64,000 nt of DNA, from NCBI RefSeq assembly GCF_029589435.1, contig NZ_JARRAG010000002.1, positions 2,604,001 through 2,668,000 on the forward strand, in the 5' to 3' direction. The translations under genes were made by a program, and so were the position numbers. Positions 13,899 to 24,386 of the stretch are shown piece by piece (within the stretch, counting starts at the first letter, position 1; each line of letters opens with the position of its first letter). The notes below the pieces were generated by a model. The model was not told the origin of the DNA. It searched no databases and saw only the letters and a list, made by a program, of their open reading frames with translations. This stretch comes from Paludisphaera mucosa. GTDB lineage: Bacteria; Planctomycetota; Planctomycetia; Isosphaerales; Isosphaeraceae.

Positions 13899-15704
13899 TC
13901 AGCGGACGGAGCGGTCCGGGGACGCCGCGCCGGTCTGGATCGGGCGGGGGTCGAGCCGGAGGAGGACCAGACCGTTCCGCAACGGGGCTTCTTCCTGGAG
14001 GACCGGCGTGGCGACGCCCGCGAGGTCGGGGCCGAGGGCGCGATAGACCTTCTCGCGGAGGATCAGATAGCCGCCCGCCTGGGCGTCGTCCCTCAGCCAG
14101 TCGGCCAGGACGTGTTTCGCGCGGGCCACCAGGCCGAAGGGAGTGAGATCCTGGCGGTCCGCGCCGTTCCACTGGTCGAAGGCGTCGTTGTAGCGGGACT
14201 CGCTGCCGGGGACCGCCGCGAGCCGACGGCTCCTCAGGTAGAACCAGAGCCCTTCGTCCAGCTCATGATAGAAGGAGAGCGTCTCCACCCCCGCCGGCAC
14301 AGCCCGGTCGATGGCCTTGGCGACACGACGATGGCCGCGCGTCGCGTTGCCCGCCGGGCCCACGATCCCGTAGCCGACCACGACCGCAAAGGCCGTCGCC
14401 GCCAATGCCGGCGCGAGGGCTCCAGCCCCCCATCCCCGGCGTCCTCCCGCGAAACCGAGCACGCCAGCCCCGAACGCCGCACAGGCCATCACGCCGCACC
14501 AAACCGGTTGCGACGCGCCCAGTCCGCGGCCGGCCATCGAGAGTGCGACCGCCCCCAGGACCGACCAGAGCCCCCATTGGAGGAGGATCAGCACGCGCGC
14601 CGCCCGACTCCTGTCGCCCTCGCGAGCCCGGCGTTCGAGCCGGAGCCAGGCCGACGCCGCCAGCAGCGCGAATCCCGGCAGGCACGGGACGTAATAGTTG
14701 GGCTTGGCCACCGCCCAGAGGCTGAAGAGGACCGCCACGCCGACCGACCACGACCAGGGGAGCCAGACCCAGGCGTCGGCCGCATCCCGATCGCGACGGA
14801 AAGGGAGCAAGACGCCCGACGCCCCGGCGACGACCCACGGCAGCACCAGCACCGGCCACTGCAAGAGGAAGGCGGCCCGCTCACGATGCACGATCGCCAG
14901 CGCGCCCGTCTTCTGCCCCATCTCGGCGGCCCACACCCCCGCCGCATTGGGGTCGGCGAGCCACACCGGCAGCGGCCAGCTCAGGGCTAACGCGGCGAAT
15001 GCGATCAATCCCCAGGGGTCGACCGCCAACCGCGCGAGCGGTCCCCCGACTCGCCCGGACCAGGCCCAGGGGCCGACGGCCGCCGCGACGATCGCCAGCA
15101 CCACCGGCCCCTTGCAGAGGAAGCCGAGCCCGAGCGCGACGTGGAAGACGAACGCCCAGCGCCGGAACCCGCCCGGTTTTCGTTTCGGACCTGAGCTTGC
15201 CTCTTCAATATGTCGGACTGTCGCATACAGGGCGAGCGTCGTGCAGAAGGCGAGCGGGACGTCCTGCCCGGCCTGCCGCGCCTCGGCGATGAACAAGGGG
15301 GTCGTGCAGAGGATGATCGCGGCGGTGAGCCCGAGCGGGCGGCCGCCGAATCGCAGACCGAGCAGGTAGGTGAGAACGACCGTCCCGAGCGCCGCGAACG
15401 CTCCCGGCAGGCGGATGATCGTCTCGTCGCAGCGACCGACGACCGCGGCCAGCGCGGCGGTCGACCATCGCGGCAGGGGCGGCTTCTCCAGCCGGGGACG
15501 GCCCTGGATCCGCGCCACCAGCCAGTGGTCGTTCTCGACGGTGTCGAGCACCTCGGCCGCCAGCCGCTGCTCGCGCTTGCCCCAGAGTTCCAGCGAGCCC
15601 AGGCAACCCAGGAAGATCACGCCGGCCAGGGCCGCCACGACCGCCTCGACGCCCCAGACGCGCCGGCTCGCCGGGGCGATCGTCATTGCTACCGGAGCCG
15701 ACAT
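13899..15704 (-). CDS. GT39/ArnT-like integral membrane glycosyltransferase
   Basis: 601 residues with about eleven to twelve membrane segments. The first extracytoplasmic loop reads LWGKREQRLAAEVLDTVEN and then GRPRLEKPPLPRW. This is the ArnT/PMT-type layout (acidic loop motif, then K-P-P-L), and EARQAGQD further on matches the usual EAR motif. The common D-E pair of the first loop is replaced by K-R-E, so the catalytic acid may be the Glu or Asp further along. These enzymes move a sugar from polyprenyl phosphate to lipid A, protein or glycan. A hydrophilic C-terminal domain of about 130 residues follows. The gene is monocistronic. Confidence 0.82.
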   Translation of the reverse strand: MSAPVAMTIAPASRRVWGVEAVVAALAGVIFLGCLGSLELWGKREQRLAAEVLDTVENDHWLVARIQGRPRLEKPPLPRWSTAALAAVVGRCDETIIRLPGAFAALGTVVLTYLLGLRFGGRPLGLTAAIILCTTPLFIAEARQAGQDVPLAFCTTLALYATVRHIEEASSGPKRKPGGFRRWAFVFHVALGLGFLCKGPVVLAIVAAAVGPWAWSGRVGGPLARLAVDPWGLIAFAALALSWPLPVWLADPNAAGVWAAEMGQKTGALAIVHRERAAFLLQWPVLVLPWVVAGASGVLLPFRRDRDAADAWVWLPWSWSVGVAVLFSLWAVAKPNYYVPCLPGFALLAASAWLRLERRAREGDRSRAARVLILLQWGLWSVLGAVALSMAGRGLGASQPVWCGVMACAAFGAGVLGFAGGRRGWGAGALAPALAATAFAVVVGYGIVGPAGNATRGHRRVAKAIDRAVPAGVETLSFYHELDEGLWFYLRSRRLAAVPGSESRYNDAFDQWNGADRQDLTPFGLVARAKHVLADWLRDDAQAGGYLILREKVYRALGPDLAGVATPVLQEEAPLRNGLVLLRLDPRPIQTGAASPDRSVR

Positions 15705-17047: not shown

Positions 17048-18460
17048 ATGGGGCCGAACGTCGGGAACCCGATCACGTCGCGGACATCGCCCCACCGGAA
17101 GTACGTCGCCCCCGAGCGCCCGGAGCCGACGCGGCCTTCACGGTGGCTCGAACGGCTCTACGCCGACGAGCCGGCGAACTGCCGGCGGGCGCTCGTCCCG
17201 TTCCTCCGCAACCTCCTCTACTTCGGGCTGATCTTCGCCGTGTGCCGGCGGTATCAGACCGAGGGCCGCGCCTTCCAGGTCTTGCTTCAAGTCGCCGGGC
17301 TCGCCTTTCCGATCCACTACCTGGCTCCCTATCGCTGGAAGCAGGGCGTGTTCATCGCCGCCTCGGTCGCCGGCCTGTTCCTGGTCTTCGGGACGGGCGT
17401 GGGCGCGGTCGTGGTCGGCCTGTCCGCGGTCCTGATCGGCGTCGGCCGCATGCCGGTCTCCTGGAACCTGCGGGTCGGGATCCTGGCCGGGCTGACCCTC
17501 TTCCTGGCGTGCGGCAAGCCCGCGGCGCTCTTCGAGCTGGCGCCCCCGACCGTGTGGCCGGTGCTCGGCTCGATGTTCATGTTCCGCATGCTCGTTTACA
17601 TGTATGAGCTGAAACACGCCCGGAAGCCGGAGAGCCTGATCGACGCGGTCGGCTACTTCTTCCTGCTGCCGAACTACTGCTTCATGCTCTTCCCGGTGGT
17701 CGACTACCGGACCTGGCAGCGGGGCTACTTCGCCGCCGAGGTCCACGACGTCCAGCGCCGGGGGCTGGAGATGACGTTCCGGGGCGTGGTCCAGCTCATC
17801 CTCTACCGGATCATCGACCAGGAGCTGCTCTTCCCCTCGTCCCAGGTCAACGGCCCCGGGAGCCTCCTGGCCTTCCTGGTGTTCAACTACCTGGTGTACC
17901 TGCAGGTCTCGGGGCAGTTCCACGTCGCCTGCGGCATGCTGCACATGTTCGGGTACCAGCTCCCGGACACGCACCACAACTACCTGCTGGCGAGCGGCTT
18001 CACCGACTACTGGCGGCGGATCAACATCTACTGGAAGGACTTCATGGTCCGACTGGTGTTCAACCCGGTGGTCTTCCGCCTCAAGCGCTGGCCGCAGCCG
18101 GCGGCGATCGCGGCGGCGACGGTCGTGGTGTTCTTCGTCACCTGGCTGACGCACGGCTACCAGTCGTTCTGGCTCCGAGGCACCTGGGGCTTCAGCGCGC
18201 CCGACGCGGTCTTCTGGGGCGTGCTGGGCTGCCTGGTGATGGTGAACGTCCAGCTCGACGCCCGCCGCGGACCGGCCCGGCCCAGGCCGAAGCCCAGGGC
18301 CGACGAGCCGGCGCCGGGGATCGACTATCGGGGCCTGACCATCCGGGGCGCCAAGATCCTCGCCACGTTCGCGACCATCACGCTGCTCTGGTCGCTCTGG
18401 AACAGTCCCAGCCTCGCGGCCTGGCTCGACCTGATGGCCCGCGGCCTCCAAGCGTCGTGA
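17048..18460 (+). CDS. MBOAT family membrane acyltransferase (DltB-like)
   Basis: 470 residues from ATG 17048, preceded by GAGGAAGGG (17032-17040). A longer in-frame extension to 16856 is low-complexity and unlikely. About ten membrane segments are present. The MBOAT signature region is FTDYWRRINIYWKDFMVRLVF (about residues 318-338), comparable to the F-x-x-F-W-R-R-W-H-I-S block of DltB/AlgI. The conserved active-site His is His369 in TWLTHGYQSF. Such enzymes transfer acyl groups across the membrane to polymers. It is the first gene of a tight plus-strand cluster with an SGNH protein 22 bp later, an adenylation enzyme and an LPLAT protein. Confidence 0.85.
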   Translation: MGPNVGNPITSRTSPHRKYVAPERPEPTRPSRWLERLYADEPANCRRALVPFLRNLLYFGLIFAVCRRYQTEGRAFQVLLQVAGLAFPIHYLAPYRWKQGVFIAASVAGLFLVFGTGVGAVVVGLSAVLIGVGRMPVSWNLRVGILAGLTLFLACGKPAALFELAPPTVWPVLGSMFMFRMLVYMYELKHARKPESLIDAVGYFFLLPNYCFMLFPVVDYRTWQRGYFAAEVHDVQRRGLEMTFRGVVQLILYRIIDQELLFPSSQVNGPGSLLAFLVFNYLVYLQVSGQFHVACGMLHMFGYQLPDTHHNYLLASGFTDYWRRINIYWKDFMVRLVFNPVVFRLKRWPQPAAIAAATVVVFFVTWLTHGYQSFWLRGTWGFSAPDAVFWGVLGCLVMVNVQLDARRGPARPRPKPRADEPAPGIDYRGLTIRGAKILATFATITLLWSLWNSPSLAAWLDLMARGLQAS

Positions 18461-18482
18461 CAAGGGGAGGATCGGAACGGCC

Positions 18483-19712
18483 ATGGCGCTCATCCAGACC
18501 ACATCGCTCCGCGCGGCCCGCATCGCCATGCTGCAGGCCGCGGCGCTCGTGGCGATCTCGCTCATCTCGGTCCCTTCCGACTGGACCAGGGCCCGCCGGC
18601 TGATGGCGTCGGCGACCTCGAACTCGTCCAATCGGGCCGACGGCGACCACCACGCGACCGGCTACTACGAGGGCCTCGTCGGCGGCGCCGAGGGCCCCGG
18701 CGGGCGCGGCGAGCTGACGCTCGCGCTCATGGGCAAGCCCAACGGCTGGGTCCGGTTCAACGACGCCGGCGTGGTCCGCCACCTCGACCGCGACTTCCTC
18801 CAGTTCGAGCTGATCCCCAAGATCGACAGCCTGCTGTTCGGCCAGCCGTTCGTCACGAACTCGCACGGCATGCACAGCCCCGAGGCGACCGTCGAGAAGC
18901 CGCCGGGCGTTTTCCGGATCGCCCTGCTCGGGGCCTCGATGGACATGGGCTGGGGGGTCAAGTACCAGGACACCTACAGCCATCAGCTCGAAGGCTGGCT
19001 GAACACCCACCCCGCGCACCGGGGGTTCGCCTCCGATCGCAAGTTCGAGGTGCTCAACTTCGCGGTGGCCGCGTACAGCCCCCTGCAGCGCCTGGAGTCG
19101 TTCCGCCGCAAGGCCAGGGACTTCAAGCCCGACCTGGTGATCTTCGCGTCGACCATGCTCGACTCGCGGCTGGCCGAGATCCACCTCTGCGACGTCTTCC
19201 GCACCAAGGCCGACCTGACCTACGACTTCGTGCGTCAGGCCGTCGAGGCCGCCGGCGTCACCGAGGCCGACCGCCGCGTCGATCGCGGCCAGCTCTCGGC
19301 CAAGGAGACGATCAAGAAGAAGCTGGAGCCGCACTACTGGAGCCTGTACGACGCCACCGTCGCCGCCCTGGCCGGCGACTGCCGGACGGCCGGCATCCCG
19401 ATGATGATGCTGGTCATCCCCCGCGTCGGCAAGGACGCCGAGGAATCGGAGCGGGCCGAGTCGGTCGGCCGGCTCAAGGCGATCGCGGGCCGGTACGCCC
19501 TGCCGATCTACGACCTCACCGACACCTTCGACGAGATCGACCCCGCGCTGCTGGAGATCGCAGCCTGGGACGACCACCCCAACGCCCTGGGTCACCATCG
19601 CCTCTTCCTCTCCCTGACGCACAAGCTGGTGACCGACCAGGGCCGGTACGAGCTGCTCTTCCCGGGTCGCAAGGCCGTGGCCGAGGCGGCCCTGCCCCAG
19701 GACCTGCCGTAA
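18483..19712 (+). CDS. Membrane-anchored SGNH-hydrolase-like protein (DltD/AlgJ-like role proposed)
   Basis: 409 residues. An N-terminal membrane segment (about 12-32) places the rest outside the cytoplasm. SGNH block I is LLGASMDMGWG with Ser152, and block V is WDDHPNALGHH with Asp363/Asp364 and His365. In dlt and alginate O-acetylation systems an MBOAT protein works with exactly this type of extracytoplasmic SGNH partner. The gene starts 22 bp after the MBOAT stop. The acyl group and target are unknown. The family could also be a plain esterase. Confidence 0.82.
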   Translation: MALIQTTSLRAARIAMLQAAALVAISLISVPSDWTRARRLMASATSNSSNRADGDHHATGYYEGLVGGAEGPGGRGELTLALMGKPNGWVRFNDAGVVRHLDRDFLQFELIPKIDSLLFGQPFVTNSHGMHSPEATVEKPPGVFRIALLGASMDMGWGVKYQDTYSHQLEGWLNTHPAHRGFASDRKFEVLNFAVAAYSPLQRLESFRRKARDFKPDLVIFASTMLDSRLAEIHLCDVFRTKADLTYDFVRQAVEAAGVTEADRRVDRGQLSAKETIKKKLEPHYWSLYDATVAALAGDCRTAGIPMMMLVIPRVGKDAEESERAESVGRLKAIAGRYALPIYDLTDTFDEIDPALLEIAAWDDHPNALGHHRLFLSLTHKLVTDQGRYELLFPGRKAVAEAALPQDLP

Positions 19713-19763
19713 CTTCCAACCCACTTGACCGCACCCGCAACCGCGCCGCACGGATAAGACGCC

Positions 19764-21347
19764 ATGGATGGACGCCATCTCAGCCGACTGCTGGAGGAGG
19801 CCGTCGCGCGACGGCCCGACCGCCCCGCCGTCGAGGACGAACGGGGACGATCGCAGACCTACGCCGACCTGGACCGCGCCGCCGACCGCGTCGCGGCCCG
19901 GCTCGCGCGCTGGGGGATCGACCGGGGCGACCGCGTCGGCCTCTGGCTCCCCAAGAGCCTGGAGGCCGTCGCCGCGATCCACGGGATCCTGCGGGCGGGC
20001 GGGGTCTACGTCCCCGTCGACCCCACGGGCCCCGCCGGCCGCGCCGAGGGGATCTTCACCGACAGCGGCGCCAGGGCCGTCGTCGTCGCCGCCAAGCTCG
20101 CCCCCGCGTTGCGCCAGGCGTGGGAGGGCCGCGAATCGGCGCCCCGGCTCATCGTCGTCGCCGACGACGCCGCGTCCGACGCCCTCGCCCCCGAGGACGC
20201 CGACTGGTCCGAGGTCCTGGCCGACGACGCCCCATCCCCCCTGCCCCCCTCGCGCGAGGCCGACGACCTGGCGTACATCCTGTTCACCTCCGGGTCGACG
20301 GGTAAGCCGAAGGGGGTCATGCTCTCGCACGCCAACGCCTTCACGTTCCTCGAATGGTGCCGCGACGCCCTGGGCCCCTGGAGCGACGACGACCGCTACT
20401 CCTCGCACGCGCCCTTCCACTTCGATCTGTCGATCTTCGACCTGTACGTCGCCTGCCTGAACGCCGGCACGCTCGTCCTGATCGGCGAGACCCTGGCCAA
20501 GGAGCCCGCGGCGCTCGGCGACTACATCCAGGACAAGCGGATCAGCGTCTGGTACTCGGCCCCTTCGATCCTCGCCATGATGACCGAGCTGGGCCGCCTG
20601 GACCGCCCCGGCTACACGCCGCCGCGCGTGGTCCTGTTCGCCGGCGAGGTCTTCCCCATCGCCCCGCTCCGCAAGCTTCGGACGCTCTGGCCCGACGCCG
20701 ATCTGTGGAACCTCTACGGCCCGACCGAGACGAACGTCTGCACGGCCCTGGAGATCCCCCGGGTCATCGGCGACGAGCAGGCCGGCCCGTTCCCGATCGG
20801 CTTCGCCTGCCCCCCCTTGATCGGCCGCGTCGTCGACGAGGAGGGCCGCACGCTCGCCGCCGGCGCGCTCGGCGAGCTGGTGATCGCCGGGCCGGGCGTG
20901 ATGCGGGGCTACTTCGGCCGCGACGACCTCACCGAGGCCGCGTTCTTCACGGCCGACGACGGCGTGAAATGGTATCGCACGGGCGACCTCGTGATCGACG
21001 ACGGCGCCGGCTGCTACCACTTCCACGGCCGCCGCGATCGCATGGTGAAGAAGCGCGGATACCGGATCGAGCTGGGCGAGATCGAGTCGGCCCTCTACCG
21101 CCACGAGGGCGTCGACCGCGCGGCCGTGATCGCCGAGAGCGACGACGCCGGCGTCTCGATCGCCGCGTTCGTGGCCCTCAAGCCCGAGGGCCGGAAGTCG
21201 CTGATCGCGATGAAACGGCACTGCTCGATCCACCTGCCGAACTACATGATCCCCGACCGGATCACGTTCCTGGACCGGTTGCCGGCGACGTCGACGGACA
21301 AGGTCGACTACCAGAAGCTCAAGGCCCTGGCCGTCGAGGAGGTCTGA
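19764..21347 (+). CDS. Stand-alone adenylation-domain enzyme (DltA-like amino-acid/acyl AMP ligase)
   Basis: 527 residues, one complete ANL adenylation module. Core motifs in order: FTSGSTGKPKGVMLSH (174-189), FHFDLSIFDLY (218-228), NLYGPTETN (316-324), WYRTGDL (403-409), GRRDRMVKKRGYRIELGEIE (422-441), and a C-terminal DKVDY with Lys513 as the A10 lysine. The FDLSIFDLY block resembles DltA more than typical peptide synthetases. DltA charges a carrier protein with D-alanine. No carrier-protein domain is fused to it, and there is no room for one between the cluster genes. The substrate cannot be read reliably from sequence. The next gene starts six bases after the stop. Confidence 0.88.
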   Translation: MDGRHLSRLLEEAVARRPDRPAVEDERGRSQTYADLDRAADRVAARLARWGIDRGDRVGLWLPKSLEAVAAIHGILRAGGVYVPVDPTGPAGRAEGIFTDSGARAVVVAAKLAPALRQAWEGRESAPRLIVVADDAASDALAPEDADWSEVLADDAPSPLPPSREADDLAYILFTSGSTGKPKGVMLSHANAFTFLEWCRDALGPWSDDDRYSSHAPFHFDLSIFDLYVACLNAGTLVLIGETLAKEPAALGDYIQDKRISVWYSAPSILAMMTELGRLDRPGYTPPRVVLFAGEVFPIAPLRKLRTLWPDADLWNLYGPTETNVCTALEIPRVIGDEQAGPFPIGFACPPLIGRVVDEEGRTLAAGALGELVIAGPGVMRGYFGRDDLTEAAFFTADDGVKWYRTGDLVIDDGAGCYHFHGRRDRMVKKRGYRIELGEIESALYRHEGVDRAAVIAESDDAGVSIAAFVALKPEGRKSLIAMKRHCSIHLPNYMIPDRITFLDRLPATSTDKVDYQKLKALAVEEV

Positions 21348-21352
21348 CCGCC

Positions 21353-22360
21353 GTGAAGCACGTCGCACGCCGCATCTTCACCTGGAAATTCTACTTCTAC
21401 GAGCTTCTCCTGCCCGGCCTCGGCGCAATGGGGCCGGCCCGGGCGGACGCGATCGTGCGCACGGCGGGATGGGCCTCGACGTACCTCCGCCCGGGCCGCC
21501 GCGCCCGCCTCAAGGCGGCGATGGACCGCGTGAACACCCTCCTGAAGCGCGAGGGCGACGACAAGGCCGGCTGGACCGCCCTGGCCGAGAGCGCCGCGCG
21601 CTTCACCGCCCGCGACTACCCCCTCGACGGCACGAGCGACGCCGAGGCCCTGGCGCGCTTCGACGTCGTGGGCTTCGAGGCCGTGCAGGAGGTGCTGGGG
21701 CGCGGACGAGGCGCGATCCTCGTGGGCAGCCACCTGGGGGCGCACGTCGCCGGCATGCACTGGCTCTACCGCCGCGGCCTGCCGATCCGCGCTTTGGTCC
21801 AGCGGCCCAAGCACGTCTCGCACGACCTGGACCGCCGTTTCGACGCCGCCGCCGCCCCCTATCCTCAGGGCGAATTCTTCCTGAAGCGGCACCTGACGCC
21901 CGCCGCCGCGATCGAGCGGATGATGCAGGCGCGGTCGGCGCTCCGCGACGGCCTGGCGCTCTATCTCAACGGCGACATCGTCTGGGATGGGTCCAACACC
22001 CGTACCTGCCGTCTGCTGGGCCGCGACCACGAGTTCCTCGCGGTCTGGGCCGAGCTGGCCTGCCTCACCCGCGCGCCGGTCTTCTTCGTCTTCTGCCGGC
22101 ACCTGCCGGCCGGCCGCTTCGCCATCGAGTTCAAGCGGCTCGCGCCGACGACCCCGAGCAAGCCCGAACAGGCCTTGGCGGCGTACCTGGCCGAGGTCGA
22201 GGCCCAGGTCGCCGTCGACCCCTCGGAAGCCGTCGCGTACCTGACCTGGCCCTGTTACACCGACGCCCCCGAGGCCCCCGTCGCCCAAACCGGACCGGGC
22301 GGCGAAGCCGCGCCCCGGCCGGCGCACGCCCGACGCCTGCCGGACTCCGTCACGGCCTGA
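21353..22360 (+). CDS. LPLAT-superfamily acyltransferase (LpxL/HtrB-like)
   Basis: 335 residues, starting with GTG at 21353, six bases after the adenylation gene stop; GAGGAGGT at 21336-21343 is a good ribosome site. A weakly hydrophobic N-terminus (FTWKFYFYELLLPGLGAMG) is followed by GRGAILVGSHLGAHVAGMHWL near 120-140, equivalent to the H-x4-D/E catalytic block of lysophospholipid and lipid A acyltransferases. The His is present and the partner acid is not obvious. LNGDIVWDG (about 204-212) and the R-x-F-x-I-E-F segment fit the HtrB layout. A second acyltransferase in a dlt-like cluster is unusual. The 3' end overlaps the convergent SGNH/TPR gene by 11 bp. Confidence 0.75.
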   Translation: MKHVARRIFTWKFYFYELLLPGLGAMGPARADAIVRTAGWASTYLRPGRRARLKAAMDRVNTLLKREGDDKAGWTALAESAARFTARDYPLDGTSDAEALARFDVVGFEAVQEVLGRGRGAILVGSHLGAHVAGMHWLYRRGLPIRALVQRPKHVSHDLDRRFDAAAAPYPQGEFFLKRHLTPAAAIERMMQARSALRDGLALYLNGDIVWDGSNTRTCRLLGRDHEFLAVWAELACLTRAPVFFVFCRHLPAGRFAIEFKRLAPTTPSKPEQALAAYLAEVEAQVAVDPSEAVAYLTWPCYTDAPEAPVAQTGPGGEAAPRPAHARRLPDSVTA

Positions 22361-24008
22361 TCCGCTCGCGGACCGGTCTCAGTCCGAGGCCCGGGAAATC
22401 GAACGCCTCGACGTCCTCGCCACGGCGCAGGGCGTCGAGCGCGGTTTTGTAGCGGTCGCGCTTCGCCATCCGCTCCGCCTGATCGAACCGCAGCGGGGCG
22501 ATCAGGTGGTAGAAGCCGACCGCGTTCGAGCAGACCGCCTCCCACGTCGGGGGGCCGACGCCGAAGTGCGCCGCGACCTCGGCGACGTCCAGCCTGGGGG
22601 CGGGCGTCGCGTCGGGCCAGCCGAACGCCTTCCGCGCCTTCAGGCCGCCGAGCACCCCTTCCGCCAGCGCGACGTGGCCTTCGAGCGACGGGTGGAAGCC
22701 GTCGTTGAACAGGTAGTCGTCGAGCATCCCGTGGGGCCGGAGCGCGCGGAAGACCTCCTGGGCGTCGACCAGGATCAGGTCCCGGCTGGCGGCCAGGTCA
22801 CGATAAACGTCCTGGAACGACGTGAGGCAGCGGAGGGGGTGGGCGTCGAGGTCCCGCGCCGCGAGGTAGGACTTGTACGCCTCCTCATAGTTCCCTTCGG
22901 CTTCGAGCAGTCGGGCCAGCCGAAAGTGCGATTCCGCGAAGCCCGGCTGGCGTTGGATCAGCTCGCGGTAGGCCGCGATCGCGCCGGCGCGATCGGTGGT
23001 TTCCAGCTTGCGGGCCGATTCGAACGAGCGGGCGAACACGTCGCGGCGGGCTCGCGGGGTCTCGGGGGGGAGGACCGAGCGATCGGGCTCGAAGCCGGCG
23101 TCGTTGCCCGCCGGCGGGATCAGGACCGGCACGGCGCCGACGGCCGCGCAGAAGTCGAGGATCGCCTCCATCCGGCGGCGGAAGTCGGCCAGCAGCTCGG
23201 CGCGCTCGGCGTCGGTGTGCGAGGGCGAATCGATCAGCCGCCGGCCTTGTCGGGGCGGCGGCGCGGCCACGCGATGACGCTCCAGCGTCTCCTCGATCAG
23301 GCGGACCGTGGGCGAGATCCGGCCGAAGAGCGTCCCGATCGACCAGGGCCGCGACCATCCCGGGTCGTCGAGGTAATACGGCGCGACCTCGTGCGACCAG
23401 CCGTGGAGCGCGTAGAACTCGTTGTGCCCGCAATAGATGATCAGCAGGTCGGGCTTGCGCTTCAGGTTCGCGAGCTTCTGGTGCATGTCCTCCAGCCGCT
23501 TGCCCGACTCGGCGAGCACGTCGACCCGGACGTTCCGCCCCGGCAGCGATTCCTGCAGCTTCCAACCGACGATCCGACCGACCGAGAGCCACTTCTGGTA
23601 CGGCACCCCCTCGGCGCTCGATTCGCCGATGACGACGACGTCCAGGTCCGTCGGCCGCTCGGCCTCGGGATCGAACGTCGTGGGCAGCGCCGGGACCTGC
23701 GCGAACGCCGGCAAGGTCGGCGCCCGGTGCCGCCACGCCAGCCACGCGCCCGACGCCGCCTCGGCCGCCACCAGCGCCGCGAACGTCGCCGCGAACCCCA
23801 GTGTCAATCGACCCAGCGCAGGCGCGACCGGCCGACGACCTTTCCGCCGGCGGACCACGGTCCACGCCAGCCCGATCGTCGCCGCCACCACGACCAGCGC
23901 CGCGAGGACGTACACGCGCTGGAGCAGCGTCAGGAACCCGATCGCCGTCGTGACCTCCCGCGACGCCAGGTCCCCCTGCGCGACGATCGCGAAGCACGGC
24001 GGGAGCAT
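22350..24008 (-). CDS. Membrane SGNH-hydrolase-like protein with TPR-like repeats
   Basis: 552 residues from ATG 24008; further upstream codons belong to palindromic repeats. Two hydrophobic segments (about 23-45 and 55-78) precede SGNH block I, VVIGESSAEGVPY (near 133-145). IYCGHNEFYALHG serves as block III and FNDGFHPSLEGH as block V with its D-x-x-H. Between blocks III and V lies a helical stretch RELIQRQPGFAESHFRLARLLEAEG with tetratricopeptide spacing. Similar TPR-SGNH proteins occur in planctomycetes, where their substrate is unknown. It faces the dlt-like cluster and may serve the same envelope pathway, which is inference. Confidence 0.8.
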   Translation of the reverse strand: MLPPCFAIVAQGDLASREVTTAIGFLTLLQRVYVLAALVVVAATIGLAWTVVRRRKGRRPVAPALGRLTLGFAATFAALVAAEAASGAWLAWRHRAPTLPAFAQVPALPTTFDPEAERPTDLDVVVIGESSAEGVPYQKWLSVGRIVGWKLQESLPGRNVRVDVLAESGKRLEDMHQKLANLKRKPDLLIIYCGHNEFYALHGWSHEVAPYYLDDPGWSRPWSIGTLFGRISPTVRLIEETLERHRVAAPPPRQGRRLIDSPSHTDAERAELLADFRRRMEAILDFCAAVGAVPVLIPPAGNDAGFEPDRSVLPPETPRARRDVFARSFESARKLETTDRAGAIAAYRELIQRQPGFAESHFRLARLLEAEGNYEEAYKSYLAARDLDAHPLRCLTSFQDVYRDLAASRDLILVDAQEVFRALRPHGMLDDYLFNDGFHPSLEGHVALAEGVLGGLKARKAFGWPDATPAPRLDVAEVAAHFGVGPPTWEAVCSNAVGFYHLIAPLRFDQAERMAKRDRYKTALDALRRGEDVEAFDFPGLGLRPVRERIRP

Positions 24009-24015
24009 CGATCGT

Positions 24016-24063
24016 CCTTCTCCCCTGGTGGGAGAAGGCGGCCCGCAGGGCCGGATGAGGGGG
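24016..24063 (+). repeat. REP-like palindromic element, copy 1
   Basis: Reads CCTTCTCCC-CTGGT-GGGAGAAGG, then GGCCC-GCA-GGGCC, then GGATGAGGGGG: two adjacent hairpins followed by a conserved tail. Copies 2 to 5 share this layout, with copies 2, 3 and 5 in the opposite orientation. Confidence 0.85.
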
Positions 24064-24102
24064 ATCCCATAGGGTTCTCGGACTTCGGCGCCGGCTGACG
24101 AG

Positions 24103-24147
24103 CCCCTCATCCGGCCTTCGGCCATCTTCTCCCACCAGGGGAGAAGG
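24103..24147 (-). repeat. REP-like palindromic element, copy 2 (inverted)
   Basis: Begins CCCCTCATCCGGCC and ends CTTCTCCCACCAGGGGAGAAGG. It is the near-complete reverse complement of copy 1, 39 bp away, so the pair could fold into one long hairpin. Confidence 0.85.
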
Positions 24148-24190
24148 AGGAAGCGGCGAAGTGAAAGTGCGTAATCTTTTTGATGCGTCG

Positions 24191-24238
24191 CCCCCTCATC
24201 CGGCCCTTCGGACCACCTTCCCCCGCGAGGGGGGAAGG
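24191..24238 (-). repeat. REP-like palindromic element, copy 3
   Basis: CCCCCTCATCCGGCCC-TTCG-GACC and then CCTTCCCCC-GCGA-GGGGGGAAGG. Same orientation as copy 2, but with the C-rich hairpin variant also seen at 47199 and 47316. Confidence 0.85.
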
Positions 24239-24386
24239 CCTTGAAACCGCTTCCCGGGATTCTCGGCATGTTCGGCATCGCTCCGCTCGACGATCACCCG
24301 CATGCGGCGGGTATGCGATTTGCAACCATTCTCGGGCAAGTGGTTATCCCTGGGAACTCGGCACCCGGAATGAGGCGGAGATCGAC

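Follow-up and report, generated by a model that had tools for sequence, protein, structure and literature searches.

A predicted carrier-dependent envelope acylation system of Isosphaeraceae, split across the genome and probably drawing on oxidised proline

What does a set of genes resembling the Dlt system do in a planctomycete? The question is raised by four consecutive genes of Paludisphaera mucosa (Isosphaeraceae), in a stretch of 64,000 nucleotides analysed here (the window; contig NZ_JARRAG010000002.1 of assembly GCF_029589435.1, positions 2,604,001 to 2,668,000). The original prediction described them as a Dlt-like acylation cluster without a carrier protein and with an added LPLAT acyltransferase. 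Its coordinates for the four plus-strand open reading frames, and the gaps of 22, 51 and 5 bp that separate P0001, P0002, P0003 and P0004, were borne out:

17048-18460, plus strand: P0001, a divergent MBOAT protein of 470 residues; from its predicted fold, it would pass an acyl group from a carrier across the membrane
18483-19712, plus strand: P0002, an SGNH/GDSL protein of 409 residues; predicted extracytoplasmic final acyltransferase (the role of DltD)
19764-21347, plus strand: P0003, a stand-alone adenylation enzyme of 527 residues; predicted L-proline--carrier ligase
21353-22360, plus strand: P0004, an LPLAT/LpxL-like protein of 335 residues with a GTG start; found in Isosphaeraceae clusters only

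The cluster probably supplies the membrane-bound and activating components of an envelope acylation system that depends on a carrier, is split across the genome and uses oxidised proline. Two further candidate parts lie elsewhere in the genome of the window (G000):

G000:C1:1063134-1063385 (locus L067): a carrier protein of 84 residues with the motif GGILDSI, matching model NF052616 (the trans carrier)
G000:C1:249071-250216: a dehydrogenase resembling those that act on prolyl carriers, the sole PF00441 protein found in this genome

P0003 belongs to the enzymes that adenylate amino acids. It matches the AMP-binding family with 302 bits and the amino-acid adenylation domain TIGR01733 with 358.6 bits (cut-off 317.4). 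DltA models rank second and third among its NCBIfam matches, with 291 bits for TIGR01734, whose curated cut-off is 560. The best single-domain relative of solved structure is the L-prolyl-carrier ligase 6o6e (339.6 bits), and DltA 3e7w scores 227.8 bits; rows of gramicidin synthetase that outscore 6o6e are sums over two domains and were set aside. At the ten positions that we take to line the adenylation pocket, P0003 and 20 of 22 relatives read DLFYLALVCK, one relative reads DLLYLALVCK, and that of G214, a genome of another family, reads DLLYHALVCK. The enzymes of other bacterial groups (see below) read DLLYLALVC(K) in 15 of 25 cases and mostly differ at one position in the rest, L271 differing at four. 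The aligned columns of 6o6e, read by eye, are DLLYLALVC.

Because the pocket is of the prolyl type and the best single-domain relative of solved structure is an L-prolyl ligase, the substrate of P0003, as judged from its sequence, is probably L-proline and not D-alanine. The analogy with DltA and D-alanine drawn at first thus fails for the substrate, and the pocket comparison with DltA that had been suggested with it returned a prolyl pocket. Two other identities were considered and set aside: DltA, on the missed cut-off and the unlike pocket, and a simple coenzyme A (CoA) ligase or fatty-acyl-AMP ligase, on the family scores and the pocket. Our literature search turned up no paper on this pocket code.

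The genome has ten PF00550 carrier-domain matches, none of them within the window, in agreement with the original prediction. The description of the system as one without a carrier does not hold beyond the window. A co-occurring carrier gene elsewhere, for which a search had been proposed, was found: the trans carrier is present in all 45 Isosphaeraceae among 397 genomes of the class (40 over the curated cut-off of NF052616, five slightly under it), and a relative of it lies between the MBOAT::SGNH and adenylation genes in G214. In 10 of the 17 family genomes searched, no amino-acid adenylation domain other than the P0003 orthologue reaches E<=1e-60, which makes P0003 and the trans carrier a natural pair. 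Since carrier and cluster both belong to the core of the family, their co-occurrence inside Isosphaeraceae alone proves little, and it is the loci outside the family that bear the argument.

To collect such loci, named genomes were scanned with the MBOAT alone, and the best 80 of 117 relatives were kept. The outside set comprises 38 loci, namely L265-L303 (n=39) minus L281, an Isosphaeraceae fragment with neither adenylation enzyme nor carrier. The MBOAT is present in these loci by construction; the adenylation enzyme, the carrier and the dehydrogenase were not selected for. Group names are those of the record titles, mostly of metagenome bins, and such titles can be wrong, as seen from the Isosphaeraceae-like loci L257 and L262, which are titled Kuenenia.

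The adenylation enzyme is found in 26 of the 38 outside loci (in pieces in L267) and the carrier in 27. Both occur together in 26, lying at most 300 bp apart in 24. The dehydrogenase accompanies them in 22 of these 26 loci, the exceptions within the stretch examined being L272, L296, L299 and L300. Loci with adenylation enzyme and carrier come from eleven groups: Acidobacteria, Burkholderiales, Gammaproteobacteria, Deltaproteobacteria, Gemmatimonadetes, Myxococcota, Rhodothermales, Phycisphaerae, Verrucomicrobiales, Anaerolineales and Krumholzibacteriota. G214 carries the whole set on a single strand, in the order MBOAT::SGNH fusion (896 residues), carrier (59% identical to the trans carrier), adenylation enzyme (50% identical to P0003) and dehydrogenase. 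Trees of the adenylation enzymes and of the carriers place Isosphaeraceae, G214 and the other groups together and apart from the controls, with weak support (0.57 and 0.70).

The dehydrogenase is present in 41 of the 45 Isosphaeraceae and in G214, and in 0 of 17 controls (E<=1e-90). The copy of P. mucosa shares 43-55% identity with those of seven outside loci. The copy of L283 is closest to the prolyl-ACP dehydrogenase 4irn (484.7 bits, next match 330.5), and PigA and RedW are the two top NCBIfam models for all five dehydrogenases tested, that of P. mucosa included. The Glu of the WER motif is kept in the latter and in five others inspected. This gene and that of the trans carrier are no more than 14 kb apart in nine Isosphaeraceae genomes, and also in G214.

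The three predicted activities are known from natural-product pathways. PigI, PigG and PigA of prodigiosin synthesis yield pyrrolyl-2-carboxyl-S-PCP, where PCP is the peptidyl carrier protein (PMC6667630), and AnaC, AnaD and AnaB of anatoxin synthesis yield pyrroline-5-carboxyl-AnaD (PMC3252866). Like these modules, the present system has a predicted L-proline ligase, a stand-alone carrier and a homologue of the prolyl-carrier dehydrogenases; unlike them, it feeds an MBOAT/SGNH pair and not a polyketide synthase, and its dehydrogenases score under the PigA and RedW cut-offs. Since the known modules stop at either the pyrroline-5-carboxyl or the pyrrole-2-carboxyl group, the product here could be the one or the other.

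A secreted small metabolite of the pyrrole or pyrroline type, acylated by the MBOAT and SGNH proteins, would also account for a proline module that is otherwise known from natural products (PMC3252866, PMC6667630). We consider such a metabolite highly unlikely. Ten outside clusters read by eye revealed no polyketide synthase or nonribosomal peptide synthetase gene, the system is near-universal in one family, and MBOAT-SGNH pairs are described as acting on envelope polymers (PMC12148441).

The system could also be a true analogue of Dlt, in which an amino acid (D-alanine, L-proline or another) is attached unmodified, as an ester, to an envelope polymer, and the dehydrogenase has no part in the system. 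The two share an adenylation enzyme, a carrier, an MBOAT with a DltB-like predicted fold and an SGNH protein, as seen by comparison with DltA, DltB, DltC, DltD and DltX. The trans carrier scores 31.6 bits against the DltC model (cut-off 68), DltA models are the second and third best for P0003, and the dehydrogenase gene lies outside the window. The scores of P0003 and of the carrier nevertheless fall short of the DltA and DltC cut-offs, and the present system differs from Dlt in its prolyl-type pocket, its dehydrogenase partner, the lack of a C-terminal FxYxxF in the MBOAT, the splitting off of the carrier in Isosphaeraceae and the added LPLAT. Dlt decorates teichoic acids with D-alanine; according to the original prediction, Planctomycetes are not known to produce these polymers, and none is expected here. 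With the dehydrogenase in 22 of the 26 outside loci that have adenylation enzyme and carrier, a plain Dlt analogue appears unlikely, and an oxidised prolyl group remains the preferred substrate of the transfer.

The name of the carrier model raises another possibility, that the trans carrier serves ornithine-lipid synthesis and the cluster in the window uses another carrier or CoA. The trans carrier matches NF052616, 'ornithine lipid biosynthesis acyl carrier protein', with 167 bits (cut-off 130), and olsH adjoins the carrier gene in the genome of the window and in several relatives. According to the Figure 3 legend of PMC12493201, acyl-ACP is one possible donor for the second step of the OlsH/OlsI pathway. 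NCBIfam thus places the carrier with the OlsH-OlsI system of planctomycetes, and the genes are often neighbours in Isosphaeraceae. Yet the carrier does not track OlsH across genomes, and OlsH itself, according to PMC12493201, needs no acyl-carrier protein. Six of the 45 Isosphaeraceae (G015, G016, G017, G022, G052 and G164; two are 99% complete and three under 82%) have no OlsH match at E<=1e-100 and keep the carrier. Outside the family, 59 of 60 genomes with OlsH have no carrier match at E<=1e-12, and in the remaining one, G214, the carrier stands beside the adenylation enzyme and OlsH on another contig. None of the 27 outside loci holding the carrier contains OlsH, OlsG or OlsI. A role of the trans carrier in ornithine-lipid synthesis in place of the one proposed here is therefore quite improbable. 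The NF052616 family probably belongs to the proline/MBOAT system and is probably mis-assigned to ornithine lipids; its name may rest on the olsH neighbourhood.

As a separate observation, some Isosphaeraceae may lack the OlsHI ornithine-lipid pathway, as judged from the six genomes without OlsH, three of them less than 82% complete. The neighbourhood of the carrier in the family also includes genes for a lipoprotein of polysaccharide export (PF02563) and for a phosphodiesterase (PF01663), both faint hints as to the acceptor. The phosphodiesterase was rejected as a core part: it is conserved beside the Isosphaeraceae carrier, yet it occurs in 1 of 39 loci of the outside set.

The membrane part of the system is formed by P0001 and P0002. 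P0001 shows no MBOAT profile above cut-off, no match to PF03062 and 9 bits against the DltB profile; a PF03062 search of the genome found two other MBOATs and missed it. Its AlphaFold model (pLDDT 85.7, pTM 0.82) has DltB 8jem/6bug as best Foldseek matches and aligns with DltB 8jem over 359 residues (VIA-align, Z 24.8, rmsd 4.3). By this model the fold is that of an MBOAT, nearest DltB. The residues W322-R323-R324, N326-I327-Y328-W329-K330-D331, T365-W366, H369 and Q372 are invariant over 23 sequences, and two invariant tryptophans, W448 and W451, lie at the C-terminus.

P0002 matches the SGNH/GDSL family PF13472 with 24.3 bits, under the Pfam cut-off of 32.9, and has a hydrophobic segment at its N-terminus, as seen by eye. 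The Ser of the G[ADS]S block and the His of the D-D-H-P-N block are kept in all 54 aligned rows, which include P0002 and the MBOAT-fused domains; the Asp preceding the His is not in every row. The MBOAT and SGNH genes are adjacent in the window and fused in 26 of the 38 outside loci. Known pairs of this kind place acetyl or D-alanyl groups on surface polymers. In this pairing, often fused outside Isosphaeraceae, the system resembles PatA-PatB and the AlgI-AlgJ/X O-acetylation proteins; it differs in that the acyl group is predicted to come from a carrier protein and not from acetyl-CoA, and in that the C-terminal FxYxxF is absent. Such pairs pass acyl groups through the membrane and act on envelope polymers (PMC12148441). 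Profiles, motif blocks and predicted folds thus back the MBOAT, SGNH, adenylation and LPLAT identities first given to the four genes.

Is the cluster kept together? A P0001 match is present in 44 of the 45 Isosphaeraceae, that of G129 being a fragment and G008 having none. Loci were examined for 17 of the 23 matching relatives within the family. The MBOAT and adenylation genes stand together in all 17, and the LPLAT gene comes next in all 16 with contig room, so the gene order looked for in related genomes was indeed found there. Among named records of the family, 21 leave room for an LPLAT gene downstream and 20 of these have it; Tautonia sociabilis (L251) has none. Two SGNH genes are present in 19 of the 26 family loci having the adenylation gene, compared with one in the window. 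The idea of an activation and MBOAT/SGNH transmembrane acylation system, Dlt-like in build with an added LPLAT, therefore stands, its genes being kept together in relatives. A second MBOAT and SGNH pair, with neither adenylation enzyme nor LPLAT nearby, was also seen in L038, L040, L044, L230, L233 (Singulisphaera acidiphila), L252 and L253, and L125 (G021:C130) has two MBOAT-like genes and an acyl-carrier-like open reading frame, as read by eye.

P0004 matches PF03279 (Lip_A_acyltrans) with 34.6 bits (cut-off 22.3). Its predicted fold resembles LpxM (Z 22.3, rmsd 4.7, 257 residues) and mycobacterial PatA (Z 21.8, rmsd 3.3, 238 residues). In the HX4(D/E) motif of LpxL/LPLAT acyltransferases the His is retained, and the usual catalytic Asp/Glu is missing from all 17 sequences aligned, P0004 among them (16 of 16 in an overlapping set). 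AlmE, AlmF and AlmG carry out lipid A glycinylation in Vibrio. By analogy with AlmG, our guess is that the LPLAT may transfer the carrier-bound group to a lipid.

That analogy can be taken further: in the cytoplasm, the LPLAT might transfer the carrier-bound aminoacyl group to a lipid, with the MBOAT and SGNH proteins otherwise engaged. An adenylation enzyme, a carrier and a partner of the LPLAT fold make up the AlmEFG set, and the missing Asp/Glu of the acyltransferase motif would suit such a role. Against this, the present system also has an MBOAT, an SGNH protein and a dehydrogenase, and outside Isosphaeraceae the adenylation enzyme, carrier, dehydrogenase and MBOAT travel together without an LPLAT, apart from one 18-bit match (L302). 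The Tautonia sociabilis cluster likewise does without it. We give the AlmEFG-like scheme little chance, and return to transfer through the MBOAT and SGNH proteins.

A model is proposed on this basis. P0003 would adenylate L-proline and load it onto the phosphopantetheine arm of the carrier encoded at G000:C1:1063134-1063385. The flavin dehydrogenase encoded at G000:C1:249071-250216 would oxidise the carrier-bound prolyl group to a pyrroline- or pyrrole-2-carboxyl group. The MBOAT P0001 would then receive the acyl group from the carrier and pass it across the membrane, and P0002, the SGNH protein, would esterify it to an acceptor outside the cytoplasm. The most likely acceptor is an exported glycan or a glycolipid, with an exported glycan as our first guess. 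The LPLAT, gained in Isosphaeraceae, may be a second transferase that delivers the carrier-bound group to a cytoplasmic-side lipid, or it may prepare a lipid acceptor. We see an even chance that the outcome is a novel decoration of the envelope by pyrrole-2-carboxyl or dehydroprolyl esters, made by a compact cluster in many phyla and by a split one with an LPLAT in Isosphaeraceae.

Besides the NF052616 match and the olsH neighbourhood given above, several observations count against this model. The dehydrogenase of P. mucosa scores under the cut-offs of its two best models (PigA, 397 against 500; RedW, 380 against 650). Carrier, dehydrogenase and cluster lie far apart in the genome of the window, where the dehydrogenase is not among the copies near the carrier. 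It is missing from G020 (92% complete) and from G129, G143 and G164 (64-77% complete), and G008 (85% complete) has the carrier and the dehydrogenase with no MBOAT or P0003 orthologue found. The adenylation enzyme was not seen in 12 of the 38 outside loci, some limited by the contig, L284 and L289 not. FxYxxF occurs in 5 of 86 MBOAT open reading frames and in none at the MBOAT C-terminus, DltX-like microproteins not being searched. According to PMC12148441, DltB receives its acyl group from a carrier and PatA from CoA, and both depend on the shuttle tyrosine of FxYxxF. With the C-terminal FxYxxF missing and the invariant tryptophans in its place, the hand-over of the acyl group would differ in detail. 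Finally, 13 other genomes of the class have MBOAT::SGNH relatives without such an adenylation enzyme nearby. A fatty-acyl-AMP-ligase-like gene stands at 8 of these loci, a carrier over cut-off at 6, and either or both at 10, with neither at L204, L207 and L213. The choice of substrate thus does not lie with the MBOAT itself, and other acyl groups are probably within reach of the P0001-type clade.

The loci L203, L205, L206, L208-L212, L214 and L215 in their own right suggest a sister system exporting fatty acyl groups.

Other genes near the cluster are less constant. The TPR-SGNH membrane protein (22350-24278, minus strand), originally noted as converging on the cluster, does so with an 11-bp overlap at the 3′ end; its place there is not generally conserved, with relatives close to the cluster at two loci of the same genus and, at 41% identity, in one further genome. 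A PMT/ArnT-like glycosyltransferase is encoded upstream of the cluster at 13899-15704 (minus strand), and members of its family, which may point to the acceptor, occur at 9 of the 21 loci compared, a count that takes in the window and one second-copy locus. Genes of the sugar-transferase, glycosyltransferase or asparagine-synthase kind are also present in four outside clusters picked by eye; as clues to the acceptor, these neighbours are faint.

The literature, in the parts of it available, yielded no description of an MBOAT/SGNH system coupled to proline adenylation, prolyl-PCP or pyrrole-2-carboxyl groups, and nothing on a planctomycete set of MBOAT, SGNH and adenylation genes. Gene deletion has been reported in Singulisphaera acidiphila, a member of the family, and PMC12493201 describes a gene knockout in this genus.

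If the model is true, it would add a new surface chemistry, in which a carrier-bound, possibly aromatic, proline-derived ring is delivered to the envelope, and would join envelope biology to a starter module of natural-product synthesis. It would also correct the probable mis-assignment of NF052616. The system is near-universal in one planctomycete family, and its adenylation enzyme and carrier form occurs in eleven other groups; thus it is probably not a niche trait.

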